A DNA stretch of 64,000 nucleotides. It comes from Ruminococcaceae bacterium R-25 (lineage in GTDB: Bacteria > Bacillota > Clostridia > Saccharofermentanales > Saccharofermentanaceae). The notes beneath the pieces are model-generated. The model did no database searches. It was not told where the DNA came from and was given only the letters and a program-made list of their open reading frames with translations. Location of the stretch: the NCBI GenBank assembly GCA_003149065.1, contig QGFZ01000002.1, forward strand, positions 434,001 to 498,000. The letters run 5' to 3'. The position numbers were made by a program, and so were the translations under genes. Positions 5,317-22,233 of this stretch are shown piece after piece. Numbering within the stretch: position 1 is the first letter of the stretch; the number at the start of each line of letters is the position of its first letter.

Positions 5317-6594
5317 TTACTTCGGAGCCCAGAAGATCCAGACGAAGAGATAACCTGCGATTACTGCGGTGAGTGTGAAGGGAATGCCGATCTTCATAAA
5401 GTCGCCGAAGCCGACTTCGTGGCCTTCTTTTCTGAGCATACCGACGCCGGCGATGTTTGCGGAAGCACCGATAGGCGTTAAGTTACCGCCAAGTGTGGCG
5501 CCGACCAGGAGGCCGAAATAAAGGAAGTGCGGTTCGACATTCATTGCGGAAGCGACACCTGCCAAAAGGGGCAGCATCGTAGCGACGTAAGGAATGTTGT
5601 CGATGAATGCGGAGATTAATACTGAACCCCAGACGATGATAGTGAAGAGGACGAAGCGGTTGGATCCGCCGAAGCTTGCGATGAATTCTGCGATGTCATC
5701 GATGACGCCGACTTCCCTGATCGTGGCGATGACTACGAAAAGGCCTGTAAGGAGGAGCATCGTGTCGTAGTCCAATGCCTTTAATGAATGGACCATTCCC
5801 TTGGCGGACTTCTGCTTGATGAGCTCCCAGATGATGGTTAAGATGCCGCATGCCATGCAGATGATGCCGTTTGTCCATTCATGAGTGTTGGGGATGAATG
5901 ATGCGATGATGAGAAGGACTACGTGGCCGAGCATTGTGATAGTCGGAACGTAGTCGGTTACTTTGGTATATTCTGTTGAGTTGACGGTCTCTTTGTTCTT
6001 GCGGAACATGATCATCATGATGGGAATCGTGAGGACCGCGCCGAGCTCAACTGCGAAGAACATGCCGGGCTTGCCGTTCATGTAGAAGAAGTCGTTGAAG
6101 TTCATGTGGTCAGCTGCTGCGAGCATGATCGAAGTCGTGTCGCCGACGAGGGTTGCGGCGCCCTGGAGGTTCGATGAAACCGCGATACAGATGATCATCG
6201 GAACAGGGTTGATCTTAAGCTTTTTGCAGATCGCAAGGCCTACAGGAGCTACCATGAGAACTGTTGCAACGTTGTCGATGAATGCGGAAATGATGCCTGA
6301 GAATAATGACATCAATATCGTTACCCACATGACGTTTTTGGAGATGCGGAGGAGTGCTTCGGCGATCCTGTTCGGCATCTTGGATTCGATGAAATAATCG
6401 ACGATTACCATCGTGCCGAAGATCATCATCAGTACATTCCAGTCGATCGCGGGAAGGACTTTTCCCAATGGCAGGATCTGTAAGACCACCATTAAGACGG
6501 CGGCAGAAAGTGCTACGATCGCACGGCGTTTCGGCAGTACGACCATAAGGATATACATGATTAAGAATATTACGATTGCGATGATCTTTTGCAT
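5317..6594 (-). CDS. ArsB/NhaD-like (SLC13/CitMHS group) permease
   Basis: 425 residues with about eleven hydrophobic segments spread over the whole length. Typical features of the ion transporter superfamily are the paired hairpin-like regions AFIDNVATVLMVAPVGLAI (about residue 110) and AFIDNIPYVATMLPLLAG (about residue 335), which form an inverted repeat of the fold, and the small-residue stretch NLTPIGASANIAG near the C-terminus. Family members move dicarboxylates, arsenite or Na+ against H+; the substrate is not readable. AAGGAG precedes the ATG. It follows the glycosyltransferase gene by 15 bases and is the last gene of a minus-strand operon. Confidence 0.8.
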   Translation of the reverse strand: MQKIIAIVIFLIMYILMVVLPKRRAIVALSAAVLMVVLQILPLGKVLPAIDWNVLMMIFGTMVIVDYFIESKMPNRIAEALLRISKNVMWVTILMSLFSGIISAFIDNVATVLMVAPVGLAICKKLKINPVPMIICIAVSSNLQGAATLVGDTTSIMLAAADHMNFNDFFYMNGKPGMFFAVELGAVLTIPIMMIMFRKNKETVNSTEYTKVTDYVPTITMLGHVVLLIIASFIPNTHEWTNGIICMACGILTIIWELIKQKSAKGMVHSLKALDYDTMLLLTGLFVVIATIREVGVIDDIAEFIASFGGSNRFVLFTIIVWGSVLISAFIDNIPYVATMLPLLAGVASAMNVEPHFLYFGLLVGATLGGNLTPIGASANIAGVGMLRKEGHEVGFGDFMKIGIPFTLTAVIAGYLFVWIFWAPK

Positions 6595-6609
6595 TAAGAA
6601 CTCCTTGGC

Positions 6610-7722
6610 TTATTTCTTGCTTTTTGTCTTGCTGCTGAAGACGAATCTCTGCTGGATAGAATAACTGATGAGGAACAGGATCGTGTCTGTTATTGCCTTT
6701 ACGACAGTTTCTATAGAGCCGGGGAAGATCATGACTACAGCTGTTACGATGCCTGCGCTTAATGCCATCTGGATGACTGCAAGAAGCGCATATTTGGAAA
6801 GTGAAGTCGCTCTCGAAGCGTGGCTTTTGAAAACGAACTTGTAATTGATGAGATAGTTATAGACGGCCGATATGATCCTGGCGGCGACCGTTGCCATCGT
6901 TATATAGACTGCCGCGAATGAGTCCTTTAACAGGAGCACGAAAAGGTGGAACAGCAGTATGTCGATGACAAAAGATGAGAGCGATGCGAAGATGAACTTG
7001 ATGAACTTTTTGCCCAGGATCTTATAGATTCTTACAGAGTCCCTGATCGGCTTGAAATGGGTCTGGTGGGATTCTTTTGAATCGTAGATCGTCTGGATCG
7101 GGATCTCGGTGAGGTTATATCTTCCTGCACACTCCAGGAGCATCTGCATCTCGTATTCGAACCTCTCGCCCTTGCAGTCTATGAGCTCGGTCATGAACTT
7201 AAAAGGAATGCCTCTAAGGCCCGACTGGGTGTCGCTGACCTTCATGCCTGCGACGTATGAGAAAACCATGATGGTTACGGTGTTGCCGAACCAGCTCTTC
7301 CACGGGATGTCCTTTTTCTCGAACTTTCTGACGCCGAGAATGAGGTTATCGGGATTTGCCTTAAGGGTGTCGATTATCTTTGTGATGCATTCGGGCGTGT
7401 GCTGACCGTCGGAATCGGCGGTAACGCAGCCAATAGCGTCCGGCATATTTTCGCTGATGTAGGAAAATGCGGTCTTGAGAGCGCGGCCTTTGCCCCTGTT
7501 GGGACGGTAGGCTATGAACTTGCCGCCTAGTTTTGTGATGATGGACTCGGCCTCTTTGAAAATGGGATCGTATTTTTCATCCGAGCCGTCGTTTACGATT
7601 ATGACGGGGCCCATTTTCTTGGCATCCAAGTCTTTGAGCAAAGCAATAAGCCTGTCATCAGGCTCATAGGAAGGGATAACTATCGGAACCAATGCCGTCT
7701 GTCTGCTTTCATCTTTACTCAT
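6610..7722 (-). CDS. Family 2 glycosyltransferase with C-terminal GtrA-like membrane domain
   Basis: 370 residues. Residues 10-230 are a GT-A fold glycosyltransferase: VPIVIPSYEPDDRL at the N-terminus, VIIVNDGSDE for the nucleotide, and ADSDGQHTPE as the DxD-type metal site. This resembles polyprenyl-phosphate glycosyltransferases of the DPM1/GtrB type. Residues 240-365 hold four hydrophobic segments like GtrA, a flippase-like domain for lipid-linked sugar. The fusion therefore may both make and translocate a polyprenyl-phosphate sugar for surface glycan decoration (inference). The gene sits between antiporter and permease genes on the same strand. Confidence 0.85.
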   Translation of the reverse strand: MSKDESRQTALVPIVIPSYEPDDRLIALLKDLDAKKMGPVIIVNDGSDEKYDPIFKEAESIITKLGGKFIAYRPNRGKGRALKTAFSYISENMPDAIGCVTADSDGQHTPECITKIIDTLKANPDNLILGVRKFEKKDIPWKSWFGNTVTIMVFSYVAGMKVSDTQSGLRGIPFKFMTELIDCKGERFEYEMQMLLECAGRYNLTEIPIQTIYDSKESHQTHFKPIRDSVRIYKILGKKFIKFIFASLSSFVIDILLFHLFVLLLKDSFAAVYITMATVAARIISAVYNYLINYKFVFKSHASRATSLSKYALLAVIQMALSAGIVTAVVMIFPGSIETVVKAITDTILFLISYSIQQRFVFSSKTKSKK

Positions 7723-9046: not shown

Positions 9047-9129
9047 TAAGGTGTTCAAGGCGTAAAAATGATATTATTAAGTGTTGAATTATGACCTGGG
9101 GTATTTCCGGGTCTTGGTGGAGGCATTTG

Positions 9130-10923
9130 ATGAAACAGCTTGAATATCCTTATGATTCCGACTTTATCTTGCGCAAGAAAAAGGCGATCAAAAGAGAGCT
9201 CCTGGCAAGGGAAGGGGTCACATATATCGAAAAGAAGATCGCTATCTTAGGCGGTTCTACTACCAGCGATATCAAGCAGATCTTGGAATTGTTCCTGTTA
9301 AACTACGGCATCAAGCCCGAGTTTTTCGAATCTGAATATAATAAATATTTCGAGGATGCCGTTTTCGGCAATCCTGAACTGGATGAATTTGCTCCTGATC
9401 TCGTTTTCGTGCACACAACGACAAGAAACATCGCGAGATTCCCTCAGGTTACGGATTCTCCCGAGCAGATCGACGCCCTGATCGAAGAGACGATGGGCAG
9501 GTTCGAGCAGATCTGGGGAGCGTTGGCTGACCGTTTCAAGTGTACGGTCATCCAGAATAACTTCGAGCAGCCTTATTACAGACTCCTCGGAAACAGTGAC
9601 TTTACCAATATCCACGGCAGGCTGAACTTTATAAACCGCCTGAACGACAGGTTCTGTCAGTATGCCCAGAGCCACCAGAACTTCTTTATCAACGACATCA
9701 ACTACATCTCGGCTGTCTACGGCATCAAGAAGTGGGCAGATCCGGGTGACTGGTACAGATATAAGTACGCACTCTCAGTTTCTGCGATCCCTGATTTTGC
9801 ATTCAACTTATCGCACATCATCAAAGCCGTTTACGGCAGGAACAAGAAGGCATTTGCACTCGATATGGACAACACCTTGTGGGGCGGAATCGTCGGCGAT
9901 GACGGTCCGGAGAACATCAAGGTAGGCCATGAGGACGCAGAATCCGAGCTCTTTACGGAGTTCCAGCAGTACATCAAGTCCCATAAGGATCTGGGAATCC
10001 TTCTTACTGTCGCATCCAAAAACGACGAGGAGAATGCTCTGGCAGGCCTTGCAAGACCCGATTCGACATTAAAGCAGGATGACTTCATCATCATCAAAGC
10101 CAACTGGGACAACAAGGACATCAATATCGCAAATACCGCAAAAGAGATAAATATCGGCTCCGACAGCTTCGTCTTCGTTGACGATAACCCTGTCGAGAGG
10201 GCCCTGGTCGAAAACCAGATCCCCGGAATCTCCGTTCCTGAGGTCGGCGCACCTGAGACATATATCGACGTTTTAGACTCAAACGGATTCTTCGAAGTTA
10301 CGGGAATCTCCGAAGAAGACATCAAGAGAAGCGGCATGTATAAGGCAAACATGGAGCGTGCAAAGGCATCGGCCCAGTTTACTGACTACGACGAGTACTT
10401 GAGGTCACTGGAGATGACCGCTGAGATCAAGCCTTTCGCGCCCGTTTATATGGCACGTATCGCTGAGCTCACAAATAAGAGCAACCAGTTTAACCTTACG
10501 ACAAAGCGCTGCAGCCAGGCAGATATCGAGAAGATCGCTGCTGATCCTGCTTATATCACTCTCTACGGCAGACTTGAGGACAAGTTCGGCGACAACGGCG
10601 TCGTAGCAGTTACTTTCGGACACGAGGAAGACTACGGAAACGACAAGTTCTTCCATATAGACCTCTGGCTCATGAGCTGCAGAGTCTTAAAGCGCGGTAT
10701 GGAATATGCAATGATGGATGAGCTGATCCGCGAGGCAAAATCCAGAAATATTACCAAAATTAAAGGCTATTATTTGCCGACTGCAAAGAATAAAATGGTC
10801 AAGGATTTTTACGAGCTCCAGGGCTTCGATAAGATAAGAGAAATGGAAGACGGCACATCCGAGTGGATCCTCGATCTGGACAGCCCGCACAAGAGTGGAA
10901 ATGTTGCGATCAAGGTCAACTGA
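9130..10923 (+). CDS. FkbH-like HAD-IIIC protein with N-terminal SGNH-like domain
   Basis: 597 residues from the ATG at 9130; GGAGG at 9118-9122 favours it over an ATG at 9091. Residues about 35-210 contain IAILGGSTTSDI, resembling block I of SGNH hydrolases. Residues about 235-400 form a HAD domain with ALDMDNTLWGGIVGDDG (nucleophile and acid Asp) and VFVDDNPVERA. The last part is GNAT-like. FkbH relatives take 1,3-bisphosphoglycerate and load a glyceryl group on an acyl carrier protein. An ACP gene follows 27 bases downstream, and an MBOAT transferase after that, so the three likely act together: load, carry and transfer an acyl unit. Confidence 0.85.
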   Translation: MKQLEYPYDSDFILRKKKAIKRELLAREGVTYIEKKIAILGGSTTSDIKQILELFLLNYGIKPEFFESEYNKYFEDAVFGNPELDEFAPDLVFVHTTTRNIARFPQVTDSPEQIDALIEETMGRFEQIWGALADRFKCTVIQNNFEQPYYRLLGNSDFTNIHGRLNFINRLNDRFCQYAQSHQNFFINDINYISAVYGIKKWADPGDWYRYKYALSVSAIPDFAFNLSHIIKAVYGRNKKAFALDMDNTLWGGIVGDDGPENIKVGHEDAESELFTEFQQYIKSHKDLGILLTVASKNDEENALAGLARPDSTLKQDDFIIIKANWDNKDINIANTAKEINIGSDSFVFVDDNPVERALVENQIPGISVPEVGAPETYIDVLDSNGFFEVTGISEEDIKRSGMYKANMERAKASAQFTDYDEYLRSLEMTAEIKPFAPVYMARIAELTNKSNQFNLTTKRCSQADIEKIAADPAYITLYGRLEDKFGDNGVVAVTFGHEEDYGNDKFFHIDLWLMSCRVLKRGMEYAMMDELIREAKSRNITKIKGYYLPTAKNKMVKDFYELQGFDKIREMEDGTSEWILDLDSPHKSGNVAIKVN

Positions 10924-10950
10924 TAAAGGAACTGCCAAAAGGAGATAATT

Positions 10951-11193
10951 ATGACAAGAGAAGAGATCTACGGAAAGCTTAATGAAGTATTCCAGGACGT
11001 TTTCGATGACGAAGACATCACCGTAAACGATTCCACAGTCGCAGCTGACGTTGACGGCTGGGATTCATTGGAGCACATCAACCTCATCGTTGCAGTTGAG
11101 AGATGCTTTGGTATCAAGTTCACGATGGGCGAGACCACAGGCCTTAAGAATGTCGGCGAGATGGTCGACAGGATCATCGCTCACTTAGGCTAA
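10951..11193 (+). CDS. Acyl carrier protein
   Basis: 80 residues, four-helix ACP fold with DGWDSLEHINLI; Ser39 is the expected attachment site for 4'-phosphopantetheine. Acidic and cytosolic. It lies between the FkbH-like gene and the MBOAT gene, 10 bases before the latter, so it is a dedicated carrier rather than the fatty acid synthesis ACP. The start ATG has an AAGGAGAT site directly upstream. Which acyl group it carries is inferred from the FkbH neighbour (glyceryl-type) and not shown by the sequence itself. Confidence 0.9.
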   Translation: MTREEIYGKLNEVFQDVFDDEDITVNDSTVAADVDGWDSLEHINLIVAVERCFGIKFTMGETTGLKNVGEMVDRIIAHLG

Positions 11194-11203
11194 GGGTCGG
11201 TTA

Positions 11204-12748
11204 ATGTCGCTGGTATCGTCGTTATTTCTGGTCTTCGTTGCAGCAGTCCTTCTGCTGTACTATGTGCTGCCTAAGAGCTTCCGTTTCTGGGTGCTCCTTT
11301 TAGCGAGCCTTGCTTTTGCGGCATTTTTAGGTTTCTACACACTTTTATTCGTAGTCTGTTCAGCGGTGCTCTGCTATCTCGGAGGACTTCTGGCCGGCCC
11401 TTCAAACAAGACGGGTCTTCGAAACGCTGCAACAGTCATCACGGTAGTTATCAACATCGCACTTTTGTGCGCTGTCAAATACTATAACGTCATAGGCCTT
11501 GCCGCTGAGAGATTAAATCTCCTGTTCGGCGCAGTTGACGGAGCAAACAGTTTCTTTGCTTATGCAGTCCCTGTCGGAATGTCTTTCTACGTTCTCCAGA
11601 CAACGGGTTATATCCTGGACTGCAGATGGGAGAAGATCGCACCTGACAAGAATTTCTTCAAGGTATTGCTGTTCTCAACATACTTCCCGCAGCTCATGTC
11701 GGGTCCTATGAATACCTATGCAAACCTTTCCGAAAAGATCGAAAAGGTCAAGGAAGTAAAGTTCTCTTTTGAAAGGATCGCTGACGGTGCGGTCAGAGTT
11801 GCTTACGGCTTTTTCAAAAAGCTCGTTATCGCTGAACGTGCCGCAATGGTCGTCAACATGATCTATGCTGACCATCAGACCTTTACAGGCTGGTACGTAC
11901 CTTTGGGCGTATTCTTTTTCGCGATCCAGCTCTATACGGACTTCTCCGGATGCATGGATGTCGTTATCGGTGTATCACACATGTTCGGCATCGAGCTTCC
12001 CGAAAACTTCAATTGCCCGTTCTTTTCAAAGAACGTCAAAGAATACTGGAGAAGATGGCACATCACGCTTGGCGCATGGCTCCGTGATTACCTCATGTAT
12101 CCTGTCCTCAAGAGCACTCCGCTCATTAAGATCGGCGACTGGTCAAAGGCAAAGTTCGGCAAGAAGAACGGCAAAAAGGTTCCTACATATATCGCTCTTT
12201 TCATCCTCTGGTTCGCAGTAGGCTACTGGCACGGCGGCCTTTGGAATTACGTTATCGGCTCAGGCATCCTGCACTTTATCTACATTGTGCTCGGTATGAT
12301 CTTTGAGCCTCTGTTCAAGAAGATCAGACCCAAGATCGGAGCTGACAAGCTCTATTTCAGGATCTTCCAGTCTGTAAGAACATTTATCCTGATGCTCACG
12401 GGCTTCGTATTCTTCAGATCAGCTTCCGTTAAGGACGCAATCGACATGTATGCGGCTATCTTCCGCCGTGGCGGCGCGGCACTAAACTGGCCGAACTTCT
12501 GCGCTTCGGGCATGAATCTGGCACAGCTCATCGTCCTGATCGTTGGAGTATTGCTGGTTTTTGCAGTCGACGCTTACAAGTACCGTCCGAGCGAAGATGA
12601 GGAGCCGAAGTCAGCTATCGCATTTTTGAGGAGCAAGAGCGTTGTCCTTTTGTGGGCAGCATTCATGGTACTCTTAGTAGCTACGTTGGTTTTCGGAATG
12701 TACGGCTTAGGCTACGATTCCGGTTCATTTATTTACGCAAGAATCTAA
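11204..12748 (+). CDS. MBOAT-family O-acyltransferase (AlgI/DltB-like)
   Basis: 514 residues with about eleven membrane segments. The two MBOAT catalytic signatures are present: EYWRRWHITLGAWLRDYL with His286 and GYWHGGLWNYV with His343. Relatives transfer acyl groups across the membrane to alginate, teichoic acid or other surface polymers. Here the partner is the ACP encoded just upstream, similar in logic to DltC-DltB. No separate DltD or AlgJ-type SGNH protein is encoded nearby; the N-terminal SGNH-like part of the FkbH protein is cytosolic and may not replace it. The acceptor polymer is unknown. Confidence 0.88.
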   Translation: MSLVSSLFLVFVAAVLLLYYVLPKSFRFWVLLLASLAFAAFLGFYTLLFVVCSAVLCYLGGLLAGPSNKTGLRNAATVITVVINIALLCAVKYYNVIGLAAERLNLLFGAVDGANSFFAYAVPVGMSFYVLQTTGYILDCRWEKIAPDKNFFKVLLFSTYFPQLMSGPMNTYANLSEKIEKVKEVKFSFERIADGAVRVAYGFFKKLVIAERAAMVVNMIYADHQTFTGWYVPLGVFFFAIQLYTDFSGCMDVVIGVSHMFGIELPENFNCPFFSKNVKEYWRRWHITLGAWLRDYLMYPVLKSTPLIKIGDWSKAKFGKKNGKKVPTYIALFILWFAVGYWHGGLWNYVIGSGILHFIYIVLGMIFEPLFKKIRPKIGADKLYFRIFQSVRTFILMLTGFVFFRSASVKDAIDMYAAIFRRGGAALNWPNFCASGMNLAQLIVLIVGVLLVFAVDAYKYRPSEDEEPKSAIAFLRSKSVVLLWAAFMVLLVATLVFGMYGLGYDSGSFIYARI

Positions 12749-12763
12749 AGGGGGATTTGTTTT

Positions 12764-13372
12764 ATGAATATCGTTTGTCTTGATATGGAAGGCGTTCTGG
12801 TACCTGAGATCTGGATCGAGTTTTCGAAAAAGAGCGGCATTCCGGAACTTAAGAGAACCACCAGAGATGAGCCCGATTACGACAAGCTCATGCACTGGAG
12901 ATTAGGCATCTTAAGAGAGCACGGCCTGGGCCTTAAGGAGATCCAGGATGTTATCGCACAGATCGATCCGCTCCCGGGCGCAAAGGAATTCTTAGACGAG
13001 CTTAGAAAGGACATGCAGGTAATAATCATCAGCGATACTTTCACACAGTTCGCTATGCCCCTGATGGCAAAGCTCGGTTATCCGGCTCTTTTCTGTAACT
13101 CTCTTATTGTCGGTGAAGACGGCATGATCGAGGACTTCAAGATGAGGATCGAGAACTCCAAGCTGTCCACGGTTAAGGCTCTGCAGTCCATCGGCTTTGA
13201 CACTATCGCTTCCGGCGATTCATATAACGACCTTGCCATGATCAAGGCATCCAAGGCAGGTTTCCTTTTTAAGAGCACAGAGAAGATCATCGCTGATAAC
13301 CCGGATATTCCGGCATTTGAGGAATTCGATGAGCTTCTGGCTGCGATCAAGGCTGTACCAGATTCAAACTAA
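12764..13372 (+). CDS. thrH: Phosphoserine phosphatase/homoserine phosphotransferase ThrH-like
   Basis: 202 residues, the standard size. Begins with MNIVCLDMEGVLVPEIW, a ThrH-specific version of the HAD motif I in which DMEG replaces DxDxT. Motif II is around IIISDTF, and motif III/IV is ASGDSYNDLAMI. ThrH dephosphorylates phosphoserine and can pass phosphate to homoserine. It starts 15 bases after the MBOAT gene with a GGGGGA ribosome site, so it is probably cotranscribed, although a metabolic link to the acylation genes is not obvious. A terminator follows. Confidence 0.88.
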   Translation: MNIVCLDMEGVLVPEIWIEFSKKSGIPELKRTTRDEPDYDKLMHWRLGILREHGLGLKEIQDVIAQIDPLPGAKEFLDELRKDMQVIIISDTFTQFAMPLMAKLGYPALFCNSLIVGEDGMIEDFKMRIENSKLSTVKALQSIGFDTIASGDSYNDLAMIKASKAGFLFKSTEKIIADNPDIPAFEEFDELLAAIKAVPDSN

Positions 13373-13400
13373 GGTTTGATTACTGAATTTAAGATTTAAG

Positions 13401-13426
13401 GCCGCTCACACTGTGGGCGGCTTTTT
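13401..13426 (+). terminator. Terminator after thrH
   Basis: GCCGCTCAC and GTGGGCGGC arms around ACT, followed by TTTTT. Confidence 0.85.
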
Positions 13427-13490
13427 CACACTGTTTAATGACAGATGTTGACAGTTTGCAGTGATTTTTCCCTGCAAAGTTACCGTGCGT

Positions 13491-13640
13491 CGAGAACTTT
13501 GCGGGGATTTTGGCTGGTTTTAGGCGATTTTTCTCGACAAAGTCACCGTACATCGAGAACTTTGCGGGGATTTTGGCTGGTTTTGGGCGATTTTTCACTA
13601 CAAAGTCACCGTACGTCGAGAACTTTGCAGGGATTTTTAG
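13491..13640 (+). repeat. 63-bp tandem repeat between convergent genes
   Basis: Two complete copies (13491-13553, 13554-13616) and the start of a third (13617-13640) of a 63-base unit beginning CGAGAACTTTGCGGGG; copies differ at only a few positions. A partial unit precedes at about 13455. Each junction holds CAAAGT ... ACTTTG arms that can form a hairpin. The same CAAAG/CTTTG arms occur in the terminator at 34025. It lies between thrH and the minus-strand channel gene. Confidence 0.85.
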
Positions 13641-19522: not shown

Positions 19523-21874
19523 TTACTTCTGCTCTTCAGAAGAAGATCTGATAGCCTTTCTCATGATCTTACCGTTGAATGTCTTAGGAAGTTCGTCTAC
19601 GAATTCAACTACTCTGGGGTACTTATAAGGAGCTGTCTTTTCCTTAACGTAGTTCTGGATCTCTTTCTTGAGTTCCTCTGTTCTTTCAGTGCCCTTAACG
19701 AGTGTGATCGTAGCCTTAACAACGATACCTCTTACGCCCTGAGGGTCAGGTACGCCCGTAACTGCGCACTCAAGAACATAAGGAAGCTCCATGATGACAT
19801 TCTCGATCTCGAAGGGTCCGATTCGGTAGCCGGAAGACTTAATGACATCGTCTGTACGTCCGACATACCAGAAGTAACCGTCCTCGTCTGCCCATGCAGT
19901 ATCACCTGTGTGATACCAGCCGTCGTGCCATGCCTCGTTTGTAAGTTCAGGTGCGAGGTAGTACTGGAGGAAGAGTCCCTTCGGATGGTAGTTCTGTGTA
20001 TTGATGCAGATCTCGCCTGTCTCACCGGGCTTGCATACATTGCCGTCGGGATCAAGGATCTTAACGTCGTAGAGCGGGTTGGGCTTACCCATAGAACCGA
20101 TACGGAGCTTAGCGCCGACGAGGTTTGCGATAGCAAGTGTTGTCTCTGTCTGTCCGAAACCTTCCATGAGACGGATACCTGTTGCTGCCATGAAGCGGTT
20201 GAATACCTCAGGGTTCAGAGCTTCGCCTGCAGTAACTGCATACTTGAGGGAAGACAGATCGTACTTGGAGAGGTCTTCCTTGATGAAGAATCTGAACATT
20301 GTCGGAGGTGCGCAGAATGTAGTGATATTGTATTTCTTAAACATGGGGAGGATCTCTTCAGCCTTGAAGCGGTCGAAGTCGAATGTGAAGACAGGTGCTT
20401 CGCAGAGCCACTGACCGTAGAGCTTGCCCCAGAGTGCCTTACCCCAGCCTGTATCAGAGATGGAGAAGTGGAGTCCGTTAGGATCGACGTTCTGCCAGTA
20501 CTTGGCTGTCGTGATGTGGCCGATAGCATACATGTAGGAATGCAGAGCCATCTTAGGATAGCCTGTTGTACCTGATGTGAAGAACATTACCATCGGATCG
20601 TAGCCGCATGCATAGTCAGCAGGACGCTCGAATACGTCAGAGCAGTTCTTGAACTCTTCATTGAAGTCGTGCCAGCCGGGTCTTGAACCGTTGCAGAGGA
20701 CCAGTGTCTCAACGCCGCAAACCTTTGCAGCCTTCTCGCACTCGTCGGCAGCATCGTCATCTGATGTGCAGAATACAGCCTTAACGCCAGCTGCGTTGAA
20801 GCGGTACTCGTAGTCGTGGTCACGGAGAAGGTGTGTAGCAGGGATAGCTACGGCGCCAAGCTTTTCCAAGCCCATCATGGCGAACCAGAACTGGTAGTGA
20901 CGCTTTAAGACGAGGACAACCTTGTCGCCCTTGCCGATGCCCAAAGACTTGAAGTAGTTCGCTGTCATGTTGGAATACTTCTTGATGTCTCCGAATGTGA
21001 ATCTCTTCTCTGTTACGCAGTCTTTTGCGACCCAGAGCATAGCGAGCTTGTTGGGGTTCTTGTCAGCGATGACGTCTACGCAGTCGAATGCGAAGTTGAA
21101 CTTCTTGCATGCGGGAACGTTAACGTCAACATCTACCAATGTGCCGTTCTCATCGAGAATACCGTTGAGATAGTGTGTGTAAACAGCATCTTCAAGGTTA
21201 GCTGCGTCAACGTTTGTAACGTTGTCTGTACGCATCTCTTCTGAGTTGTAAGGTGTGGTGTAGTTCTCACCCTTGCCCCATGCCTCAGGGTTTAAGATGA
21301 TCGCATAGAATACGCAGTCCTCACCGCCCAGAGCGAACTCGCCGTGGGGCTGTGTGGAGTCGAAGTAGATGCAGTCGCCTTCGTGGAGCACTTCGGAGGA
21401 ATCACCGATGATGACCTTCAACGTACCCTTAACGACGATGTTCATTTCCTGATAGTTATGTGAAACGAGGTGATACGGAGGATTCAAAGCCTCTTCAGAA
21501 TAAGGAACTACGACGCGGAAGGGTTCGCAGAGCTTGTTCTTGAATCTTGATGCAAGACGCTGGTACTTATAACCTGTACGTCTTGTGATAGGGCTGCCCT
21601 GGCCGTTTCTTGTTATTGCATACTCTGTAAGTGCAGGGGAGGAACCTTCCATGATGTCGGAGATCTCGACGCCTGCGAGGTTTGCGAATTTATAAATGAA
21701 AGTAAAGTTGAAGTCTTGGGTGCCTTCTTCAAACTTAAGATATTCCTCAGTGGAAATATCAAGCTTGGAGGCTACTTCCTCAGGTGTCAGACCCATGTCG
21801 AGTCTCAGGCCGTGAACTCTGTCGGCAACTTCTGCGAGTCTTAGCTCAACGTTGCTGTTGTTTGCTGTTGACAT
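19523..21874 (-). CDS. HTH-cupin-AMP-dependent acyl-CoA ligase fusion
   Basis: 783 residues from the ATG at 21874, which has AAAAGGAGAA upstream. Residues about 10-70 are an XRE-like helix-turn-helix (MGLTPEEVASKLDIS, GVEISDIM), 105-190 a cupin_2 barrel (VVKGTLKVIIGD, HEGDCIYFDSTQPHGEF), and 210-780 an AMP-binding ligase resembling medium-chain or benzoate-CoA ligases: FFTSGTTGYPKMALHS near residue 431, YHTGDTAWADEDG, and NGKIMRKAIR with the C-terminal catalytic Lys. It activates a carboxylic acid with ATP and CoA. A T-box leader precedes it. The HTH-cupin part may sense the acid or act as a regulator (inference). Confidence 0.85.
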   Translation of the reverse strand: MSTANNSNVELRLAEVADRVHGLRLDMGLTPEEVASKLDISTEEYLKFEEGTQDFNFTFIYKFANLAGVEISDIMEGSSPALTEYAITRNGQGSPITRRTGYKYQRLASRFKNKLCEPFRVVVPYSEEALNPPYHLVSHNYQEMNIVVKGTLKVIIGDSSEVLHEGDCIYFDSTQPHGEFALGGEDCVFYAIILNPEAWGKGENYTTPYNSEEMRTDNVTNVDAANLEDAVYTHYLNGILDENGTLVDVDVNVPACKKFNFAFDCVDVIADKNPNKLAMLWVAKDCVTEKRFTFGDIKKYSNMTANYFKSLGIGKGDKVVLVLKRHYQFWFAMMGLEKLGAVAIPATHLLRDHDYEYRFNAAGVKAVFCTSDDDAADECEKAAKVCGVETLVLCNGSRPGWHDFNEEFKNCSDVFERPADYACGYDPMVMFFTSGTTGYPKMALHSYMYAIGHITTAKYWQNVDPNGLHFSISDTGWGKALWGKLYGQWLCEAPVFTFDFDRFKAEEILPMFKKYNITTFCAPPTMFRFFIKEDLSKYDLSSLKYAVTAGEALNPEVFNRFMAATGIRLMEGFGQTETTLAIANLVGAKLRIGSMGKPNPLYDVKILDPDGNVCKPGETGEICINTQNYHPKGLFLQYYLAPELTNEAWHDGWYHTGDTAWADEDGYFWYVGRTDDVIKSSGYRIGPFEIENVIMELPYVLECAVTGVPDPQGVRGIVVKATITLVKGTERTEELKKEIQNYVKEKTAPYKYPRVVEFVDELPKTFNGKIMRKAIRSSSEEQK

Positions 21875-21912
21875 AACTTTTTCTCCTTTTCTGTCAATCT
21901 GTCTTGTCTGTT

Positions 21913-22233
21913 CCTTGTTGGGGCAAAAAAAAAGCCCCAACATCCTACTTGGACATTGAGACGAATATAAATCCGCGGTACCACTCAATTTGCAAACACG
22001 TTTGTTTGCCACTTACGAAGTCTAACAACTCCTTTGCATTAACGCAGCATCACGGGCACTGTCTACTAGGGATGATCCTTTTCGGAATGCCGGCTCGGAA
22101 GGGATAGCTTGATGCAAATATCGTCACGTGCCTCTCAGCAAATAGCACTTCTCTGTATTGAACGATTCTCTGCGGCTTTCTTCGTCACAGCCTTTAGAGT
22201 TATTCAATTGTTCGCATTTCATAGCCGAAATGT
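21913..22233 (-). promoter_or_regulatory. T-box leader (tRNA-sensing riboswitch) upstream of the acyl-CoA ligase
   Basis: Read on the minus strand: an upper Stem I helix (ATCGT/ACGAT and GTGC/GCAC) with an ACAGAGAA bulge and a distal TTTGCTGAGAG loop, then the T-box AGTGGTACCGCGG (plus-strand 21973-21985) inside the antiterminator arms ATTGAG and CTCAAT, and then CCAA/TTGG with nine T residues as terminator. The specifier cannot be fixed; ATC (Ile), followed by A, is the best-placed candidate (weak). T-boxes bind uncharged tRNA and allow read-through on amino acid shortage. Confidence 0.85.

Follow-up and report, generated by a model that had tools for sequence, protein, structure and literature searches.

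The 64,000-nucleotide stretch of DNA analysed here (the window, G000:C2:434001-498000, from contig QGFZ01000002.1 of the 3.07-Mb genome of Ruminococcaceae bacterium R-25) carries an operon, entirely on the plus strand, in which genes for an FkbH-like protein, a stand-alone acyl carrier protein (ACP), a DltB-like membrane O-acyltransferase of the MBOAT family and a ThrH-like phosphatase follow one another with intergenic gaps of 27, 10 and 15 bases. We consider it probable that the first three belong to an acylation relay resembling the Dlt pathway, in which the MBOAT is fed by a carrier protein, FkbH serves as the loader, and a protein of the SGNH family acts in trans. The preliminary description of this DNA had proposed loading of the ACP by FkbH and transfer of the acyl group to the surface by the MBOAT, with no DltA-like ligase involved. 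The exchange with a DltA-like front end strengthens this idea most, and the catalytic residues, the recurrence of the cassette, the MBOAT tree and the putative shuttle motif strengthen it further. The description was nevertheless incomplete, having overlooked the putative shuttle motif of the MBOAT, the candidate SGNH protein encoded in trans and the front-end exchange within the genus.

The protein families, motifs, operon layout, exchange pattern and synteny are read from sequence, and the substrate, acyl group, SGNH pairing and polymer of the following scheme are inferred. FkbH would accept an acyl phosphate, most likely 1,3-bisphosphoglycerate, its HAD domain would strip the 3-phosphate, and the glyceryl group would be placed on Ser39 of the ACP. 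The MBOAT would carry the acyl group from the ACP across the membrane to Tyr511 of its own FIYARI tail, and a membrane-anchored SGNH protein encoded in trans, with Cys as the nucleophile, would take it from there to a surface polymer. In related species an adenylation enzyme would do the loading, onto a carrier of its own; its gene often lies beside one for an Asp/Glu racemase, and the SGNH protein fed by this set is closely related. The loading step is suggested by the FkbH family and by the chemistry proposed for its members with stand-alone ACPs (in an extract of PMC7489565), and glyceryl is the most likely acyl group; for the membrane transfer step it is the MBOAT homology and the shuttle tail that point the same way.

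The FkbH gene (9130..10923, plus strand) encodes an FkbH_N domain, which is SGNH-like, a HAD-IIIC domain and a C-terminal part, and scores well above the family cut-off (TIGR01686, 274.5 bits against 146.65). The longest open frame begins at 9091 and comprises 610 residues. When 18 full-length relatives are aligned to it, 11 start from residue 13 or 14 and the remaining 7 between residues 6 and 12; the ATG at 9130 also has a GGAGG six bases upstream and is thus the likelier start. Residue numbers given here refer to the 610-residue frame, and 13 is to be subtracted for the start at 9130. HAD motif I (DMDNT, 9862..9876) retains its D, D, N and T in 84 of 84 aligned proteins, and D258, D260, T262, S309, D364, D365 and C530 are likewise invariant in all 84, the HAD residues among them being those we take to be catalytic. 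The invariant Cys, in an SCRVL stretch (codon 10678..10680), is a candidate acyl-accepting residue. An N-terminal SGNH-like domain had been noted before and is indeed present; it is the standard FkbH_N domain (PF21211, 46.2 bits against a cut-off of 27), for which one solved relative was found (BF1531, 3slr), and its role as the extracellular SGNH transferase was thereby ruled out. The ACP gene (10951..11193, plus strand) encodes 80 residues matching PF00550 (22.4 bits against 20.8), with the phosphopantetheine attachment site at Ser39 (codon 11065..11067) conserved in 68 of 68 aligned ACPs. The reported lack of a DltA-like ligase holds for the operon, where open frames, Pfam and NCBIfam gave none; across the genome, the test was a comparison with the congeneric adenylation enzyme, which found no match at E<=1e-80, the DltA family model not having been searched genome-wide.

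The third gene (11204..12748, plus strand) encodes an MBOAT of 514 residues (PF03062, 44.2 bits against 27). Its sole NCBIfam match is DltB (TIGR04091), at 142.7 and thus below the equivalog cut-off of 375, and among solved structures DltB is the nearest both by sequence (E 3e-22) and by predicted fold (E 1.2e-12; mean predicted local distance difference test score, pLDDT, 85). His286 and His343 are invariant in 55 of 55 alignment rows. The protein ends in FIYARI (12728..12745, with the Tyr511 codon at 12734-12736), and F509 and Y511 are kept in all 53 rows that reach this column; the alignment has 56 rows, of which the others end at contig or locus edges and many are near-identical. According to an extract of PMC12148441, the Tyr of the FxYxxF hexapeptide is auto-acetylated in PatA, and in Dlt the hexapeptide is borne by the microprotein DltX. 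The FIYARI tail resembles this motif and is a putative fused acyl-tyrosine shuttle. The 10- and 15-base gaps flanking the MBOAT gene leave no room for a separate DltX, a statement confined to these gaps, no search for one having been made in the remainder of the genome.

The association of these genes extends well beyond the window. The nearest relatives in the collection carry titles of Saccharofermentans, Ruminococcaceae, Oscillospiraceae or Clostridiales and are mainly metagenome-assembled genomes, many from the rumen or gut. FkbH loci were scanned in the best 80 of 104 relatives, comprising 35 of Saccharofermentans type and 45 from other bacteria. The FkbH-ACP-MBOAT order was found in 33 of the former, the remaining two contigs ending at FkbH. 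Among the 45 loci elsewhere (Lachnospiraceae, Bacilli and others), 31 have an ACP and 19 an MBOAT of the cassette type; all 19 of these also hold the ACP, and in 14 of them an SGNH gene lies no more than 300 bases from the MBOAT. Recurrence on this scale argues against a chance arrangement, and together with the family matches and the short gaps it bears out the earlier assignment of the three genes to one operon. In a tree of 48 MBOATs (sequences of <=440 aa or <=100 bits and most near-identical genus members excluded), 13 FkbH-type proteins of the genus and 17 encoded at FkbH loci in other bacteria form a single group (support 100/99), apart from generic MBOATs and from ten congeneric MBOATs linked to adenylation enzymes, which form a group of their own (100/100). 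FkbH loci elsewhere supplied 23 MBOATs, of which five are generic and one, from locus L082, falls just outside the FkbH-linked group with weak support (87/39). The two other MBOATs of the R-25 genome were considered as users of the ACP and set aside, since each has its own partner gene and lies outside the FkbH-linked group.

Where, then, is the transferase that would complete the relay? The operon holds no SGNH gene, and DltD (PF04914) is absent from the genome, the same search being positive in the controls Bacillus subtilis and Lactococcus lactis. A profile built from SGNH proteins adjoining FkbH-linked MBOATs retrieved two proteins from the genome, one of which adjoins another MBOAT on contig C3. 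The best match (E 4e-78; G000:C1:1648032-1649126, minus strand) has no MBOAT alongside and stands behind two glycosyltransferase genes. Co-occurrence, tree and synteny make this protein the likely extracellular, DltD/PatB-like partner of the FkbH cassette. Its relatives occur in 57 of 59 genomes sampled from the larger group of the genus, a set used for all genus profiles here (the match in G027 contains one stop codon and that in G003 is a fragment). The nucleophile slot is occupied by Cys (GDC), in place of Ser, in all 49 genus rows read, 45 of them distinct. Among SGNH proteins aligned from FkbH loci elsewhere, Ser is found in 15 of 16; all 16, like the 23 genus rows of the SGNH tree, retain the His and Asn of the last block. 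None of the SGNH proteins scanned gave a Pfam or NCBIfam name above cut-off. The sixteenth of the outside proteins belongs to a Bacilli locus, L081, in which FkbH, ACP, a VOC gene, an MBOAT ending in FIYSRI and a GDC-type SGNH stand in one run; this SGNH protein is 46% identical to the trans-encoded one of R-25, and its model (pLDDT 82) has an SGNH fold with similarity to PatB (Z 12.4) and DltD (E 1.6e-5) and a predicted N-terminal helix.

The most telling evidence comes from the distribution of two loading modules within the genus. An FkbH module was called from FkbH or from its MBOAT at >=54% identity (the latter alone in G022 and G030), and an adenylation module from the adenylation enzyme at >=56% identity (with two internal stop codons in G061 and in two pieces in G027). 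The FkbH module is present in 40 of the 59 genomes and the adenylation module in 21, with both in four and neither in two; the two module-less genomes, 76% and 79% complete, are also the only ones without the trans-type SGNH. When only the 33 genomes with a listed completeness of at least 90% are counted, the corresponding numbers are 23, 11, one and zero. A hypergeometric value of 3e-9 for the tally takes no account of relatedness and is not read as a probability. In genus genomes that lack FkbH, the adenylation module runs from the adenylation enzyme through a DltC-like carrier and an MBOAT to an SGNH gene, with an Asp/Glu racemase in seven of ten loci, which suggests that the amino acid of this front end is perhaps of the D-form. 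Its adenylation enzyme scores 327.1 with TIGR01733 (cut-off 317.4) and 291.2 with DltA, below the cut-off of 559.85; DltC is the best NCBIfam match of its carrier (31.8, below cut-off), and its MBOAT ends in FIYNQF or FIYTQF.

The surroundings of the SGNH genes tie the two modules together. In ten adenylation loci the adenylation enzyme, carrier, MBOAT and SGNH are found ten times each, preceded by a radical SAM gene (5), PurF (5), an Ig/transglutaminase protein (9) and the racemase (7), and accompanied by a small lipoprotein (7) and RplM (6). Eight SGNH loci from FkbH genomes, read like the others whole or in part and in some cases cut by contig ends, contain the overlapping frame of radical SAM (6), PurF (2), Ig/transglutaminase protein (8), SGNH (8), lipoprotein (8) and RplM (7); none of the eight has the racemase, the adenylation enzyme, the carrier or the MBOAT. 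In the SGNH tree (41 rows from chosen loci) the proteins of FkbH genomes (13 rows, 98/98) are nested in a group of 24 rows (99/99) that also holds those of the adenylation modules and of L081. MBOATs thus group by loader and the SGNH proteins of both modules group together, which indicates a swap of front ends on a retained back end. G030, G067 and G074, which have both modules, carry both kinds of SGNH. We note in passing that the Ig-like/transglutaminase-like gene was matched at 17 of the 18 genus SGNH loci read, and that in L109 (2768-8794 and 12349-16219) similar proteins, one of which was scanned, are encoded in a row around the trans SGNH gene.

We tentatively suggest, at somewhat less than an even chance, that this pattern reflects a modular switch in which an amino-acid front end was displaced by FkbH, which would draw glyceryl from 1,3-bisphosphoglycerate with no separate ATP activation, and the SGNH protein with its Cys was kept and adapted. 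A Cys nucleophile would then imply a thioester intermediate, and the outcome would be a second class of carrier-protein-fed MBOAT-SGNH systems beside Dlt, ranging over Saccharofermentans, Lachnospiraceae and Bacilli.

Several observations weigh against the relay or the switch. The shuttle tail is modelled at pLDDT <50, and both the tail in the window and all 35 complete rows of the genus have Ile in place of the final Phe of FxYxxF; elsewhere Phe is found in 17 of 18 complete rows, with L081 as the exception. The SGNH gene lies outside the operon, and the co-occurrence counts come from a single genus whose genomes are not independent. Acylhydrolases and esterases outscore DltD and PatB in comparison with the L081 model, so that the SGNH fold alone does not demonstrate transferase function. 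The radical SAM-RplM frame of G067 and G074 is occupied by the FkbH-type SGNH, with the adenylation module located elsewhere, and simple in-place loss is thus not shown for every lineage. The acceptor polymer is a candidate only: three matches to CDP-glycerol glycerophosphotransferase in the genome make a teichoic-acid-like polymer possible. A cassette-type MBOAT was not seen within 8 kb in 26 of the 45 non-genus FkbH loci, some of them on short contigs, which indicates that FkbH has other uses as well. One of these might be represented in Pseudobutyrivibrio (L064, L073, L077 and L104), where FkbH is followed by a frame that by eye resembles an ABC-2 permease, with no ACP or MBOAT match nearby. 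Finally, the acyl group transferred in the end is perhaps not plain glyceryl, since the clusters of relatives variously include MaoC, SDR, split transketolase and VOC genes.

The last point leads to the first of three alternatives, namely that the relay is as proposed and FkbH loads glyceryl or another acyl phosphate, which is converted before transfer, for instance to L-glyceryl or lactyl, by a VOC protein, presumed to be an epimerase, or, in Lachnospiraceae, by transketolase and the MaoC and SDR proteins, whose roles are likewise presumed. The recurrence of all four gene types in FkbH-ACP-MBOAT clusters speaks for such a conversion, as does the position of a VOC gene between ACP and MBOAT in L056, of a VOC-like frame (recognised by eye) after the ACP in L187 and of a gap of comparable size in L051. 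The operon of the window, however, contains none of these genes, and the distance between ACP and MBOAT is at most 10 bases in 31 of 33 loci of the genus; we regard this alternative as unlikely. As separate observations, the VOC-like gene and the MBOAT gene in the FkbH operon of L187 (from G067) are separated by a 446-aa frame with no Pfam or NCBIfam match (6133-7473), and seven FkbH-MBOAT clusters (L063, L068, L075, L078, L088, L097 and L102) include a split transketolase, mostly together with MaoC and SDR, possibly constituting a carrier-bound small-acyl pathway beyond glyceryl.

A second alternative holds that the cassette acts in natural-product tailoring rather than on a surface polymer and acylates a lipid or a small molecule that is secreted. 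Cyanobacterial clusters for suomilide and aeruginosin do contain FkbH together with an MBOAT, the two being proposed, in extracts of PMC13122637 and PMC10143770, for separate steps. The operon lacks a synthase gene, though, the L081 SGNH protein combines its predicted N-terminal helix with a fold common to DltD and PatB, and the module for which the FkbH front end is exchanged is itself Dlt-like, all of which leaves this explanation improbable.

That the four genes form a unit of serine or glycerate metabolism, with ThrH as a functional member and the MBOAT as an incidental one, is the least plausible proposal, for ThrH, despite lying 15 bases past the MBOAT gene in the window and behind it in 32 of 33 genus loci (in the remaining one the contig stops inside the MBOAT), is found in 52 of the 59 genomes, at other places in those without FkbH, and gave no match in FkbH-ACP-MBOAT loci outside the genus.

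The ThrH-like HAD phosphatase gene itself (12764..13372, plus strand; TIGR02137, 234.1 against a cut-off of 223.4) is probably co-transcribed with the cassette. The preliminary description gave the operon its first three genes correctly and missed this fourth one. As a part of the system it was rejected: its genus-wide presence, including genomes without FkbH, marks it as a housekeeping neighbour. The operon ends in a terminator hairpin with a T run found in a fold scan (13398..13424, plus strand; -18.6 kcal/mol, z -5.8), which a consensus terminator scan did not report.

Other features of the window deserve brief mention. Near the cassette (6610-7722, minus strand) one gene encodes a family-2 glycosyltransferase together with a GtrA-like membrane domain as a fusion protein, with a possible link to a glycan. 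At 13476-13628 there are triple copies, spaced by 63 bases, of a unit with AAAGTCACCGTACGTCGAGAACTTTGC (up to two mismatches allowed); five more copies lie at three other sites of the genome and the reversed control gave none, in keeping with a dispersed short repeat. An 829-aa frame (19523-22012, minus strand) joins a helix-turn-helix-like stretch, just below the Pfam cut-off, to a cupin domain and a complete acyl-CoA synthetase, and is thus a regulator-like part fused to an AMP-binding enzyme.

Every part of the cassette is of a known kind. The open-licence PubMed Central papers searched yielded no description of an FkbH-loaded carrier combined with a DltB-like, shuttle-tailed MBOAT and a trans-encoded SGNH protein; for FkbH with an MBOAT or O-acyltransferase they yielded only work on aeruginosin and suomilide, what turned up on FkbH-like proteins and polysaccharide looks unrelated, and combinations of gellan, glyceryl and acyltransferase, or of MBOAT, SGNH and acyl carrier protein, returned nothing. 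If the proposed relay is real, a carrier-protein donor is not peculiar to Dlt, and a surface relay can be charged by an intermediate of central metabolism, which would tie the decoration of the envelope directly to glycolytic flux. Front ends that have been swapped naturally on a conserved SGNH protein offer a ready test of which part of the relay selects the acyl group, and the Cys nucleophile a way to test how SGNH transferases avoid hydrolysis.

How does the proposed relay compare with known systems? The FkbH/ACP modules of tetronate and methoxymalonate polyketides share with it an FkbH-like protein and a stand-alone ACP (extract of PMC7489565), but the operon in the window has no gene for a FabH-like protein, a dehydrogenase or a methyltransferase, and the presumed consumer of the ACP is the MBOAT. 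PatA/PatB, which O-acetylate peptidoglycan, have an MBOAT with a fused C-terminal FxYxxF and a separate SGNH protein (extract of PMC12148441), to which the FxYxxF-like tail and the candidate SGNH partner described here would correspond; PatA, however, uses acetyl-CoA without a carrier protein, and a carrier protein is stated in the same extract to be absent from the non-Dlt MBOAT/SGNH pathways. With the Dlt pathway of teichoic acid D-alanylation (DltA, DltC, DltB, DltX and DltD) the likeness extends to the carrier-protein donor and the DltB-like MBOAT and would include the putative tyrosine shuttle motif and the candidate extracellular SGNH transferase; a DltA-like version, with a closely related SGNH protein, exists in other species of the genus. 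The differences are that FkbH stands in the place of DltA, that the putative shuttle motif is fused to the MBOAT and would take the place of a separate DltX, and that the part of DltD, of which the genome has no PF04914 member, would be played by a candidate SGNH protein encoded in trans with Cys for Ser.

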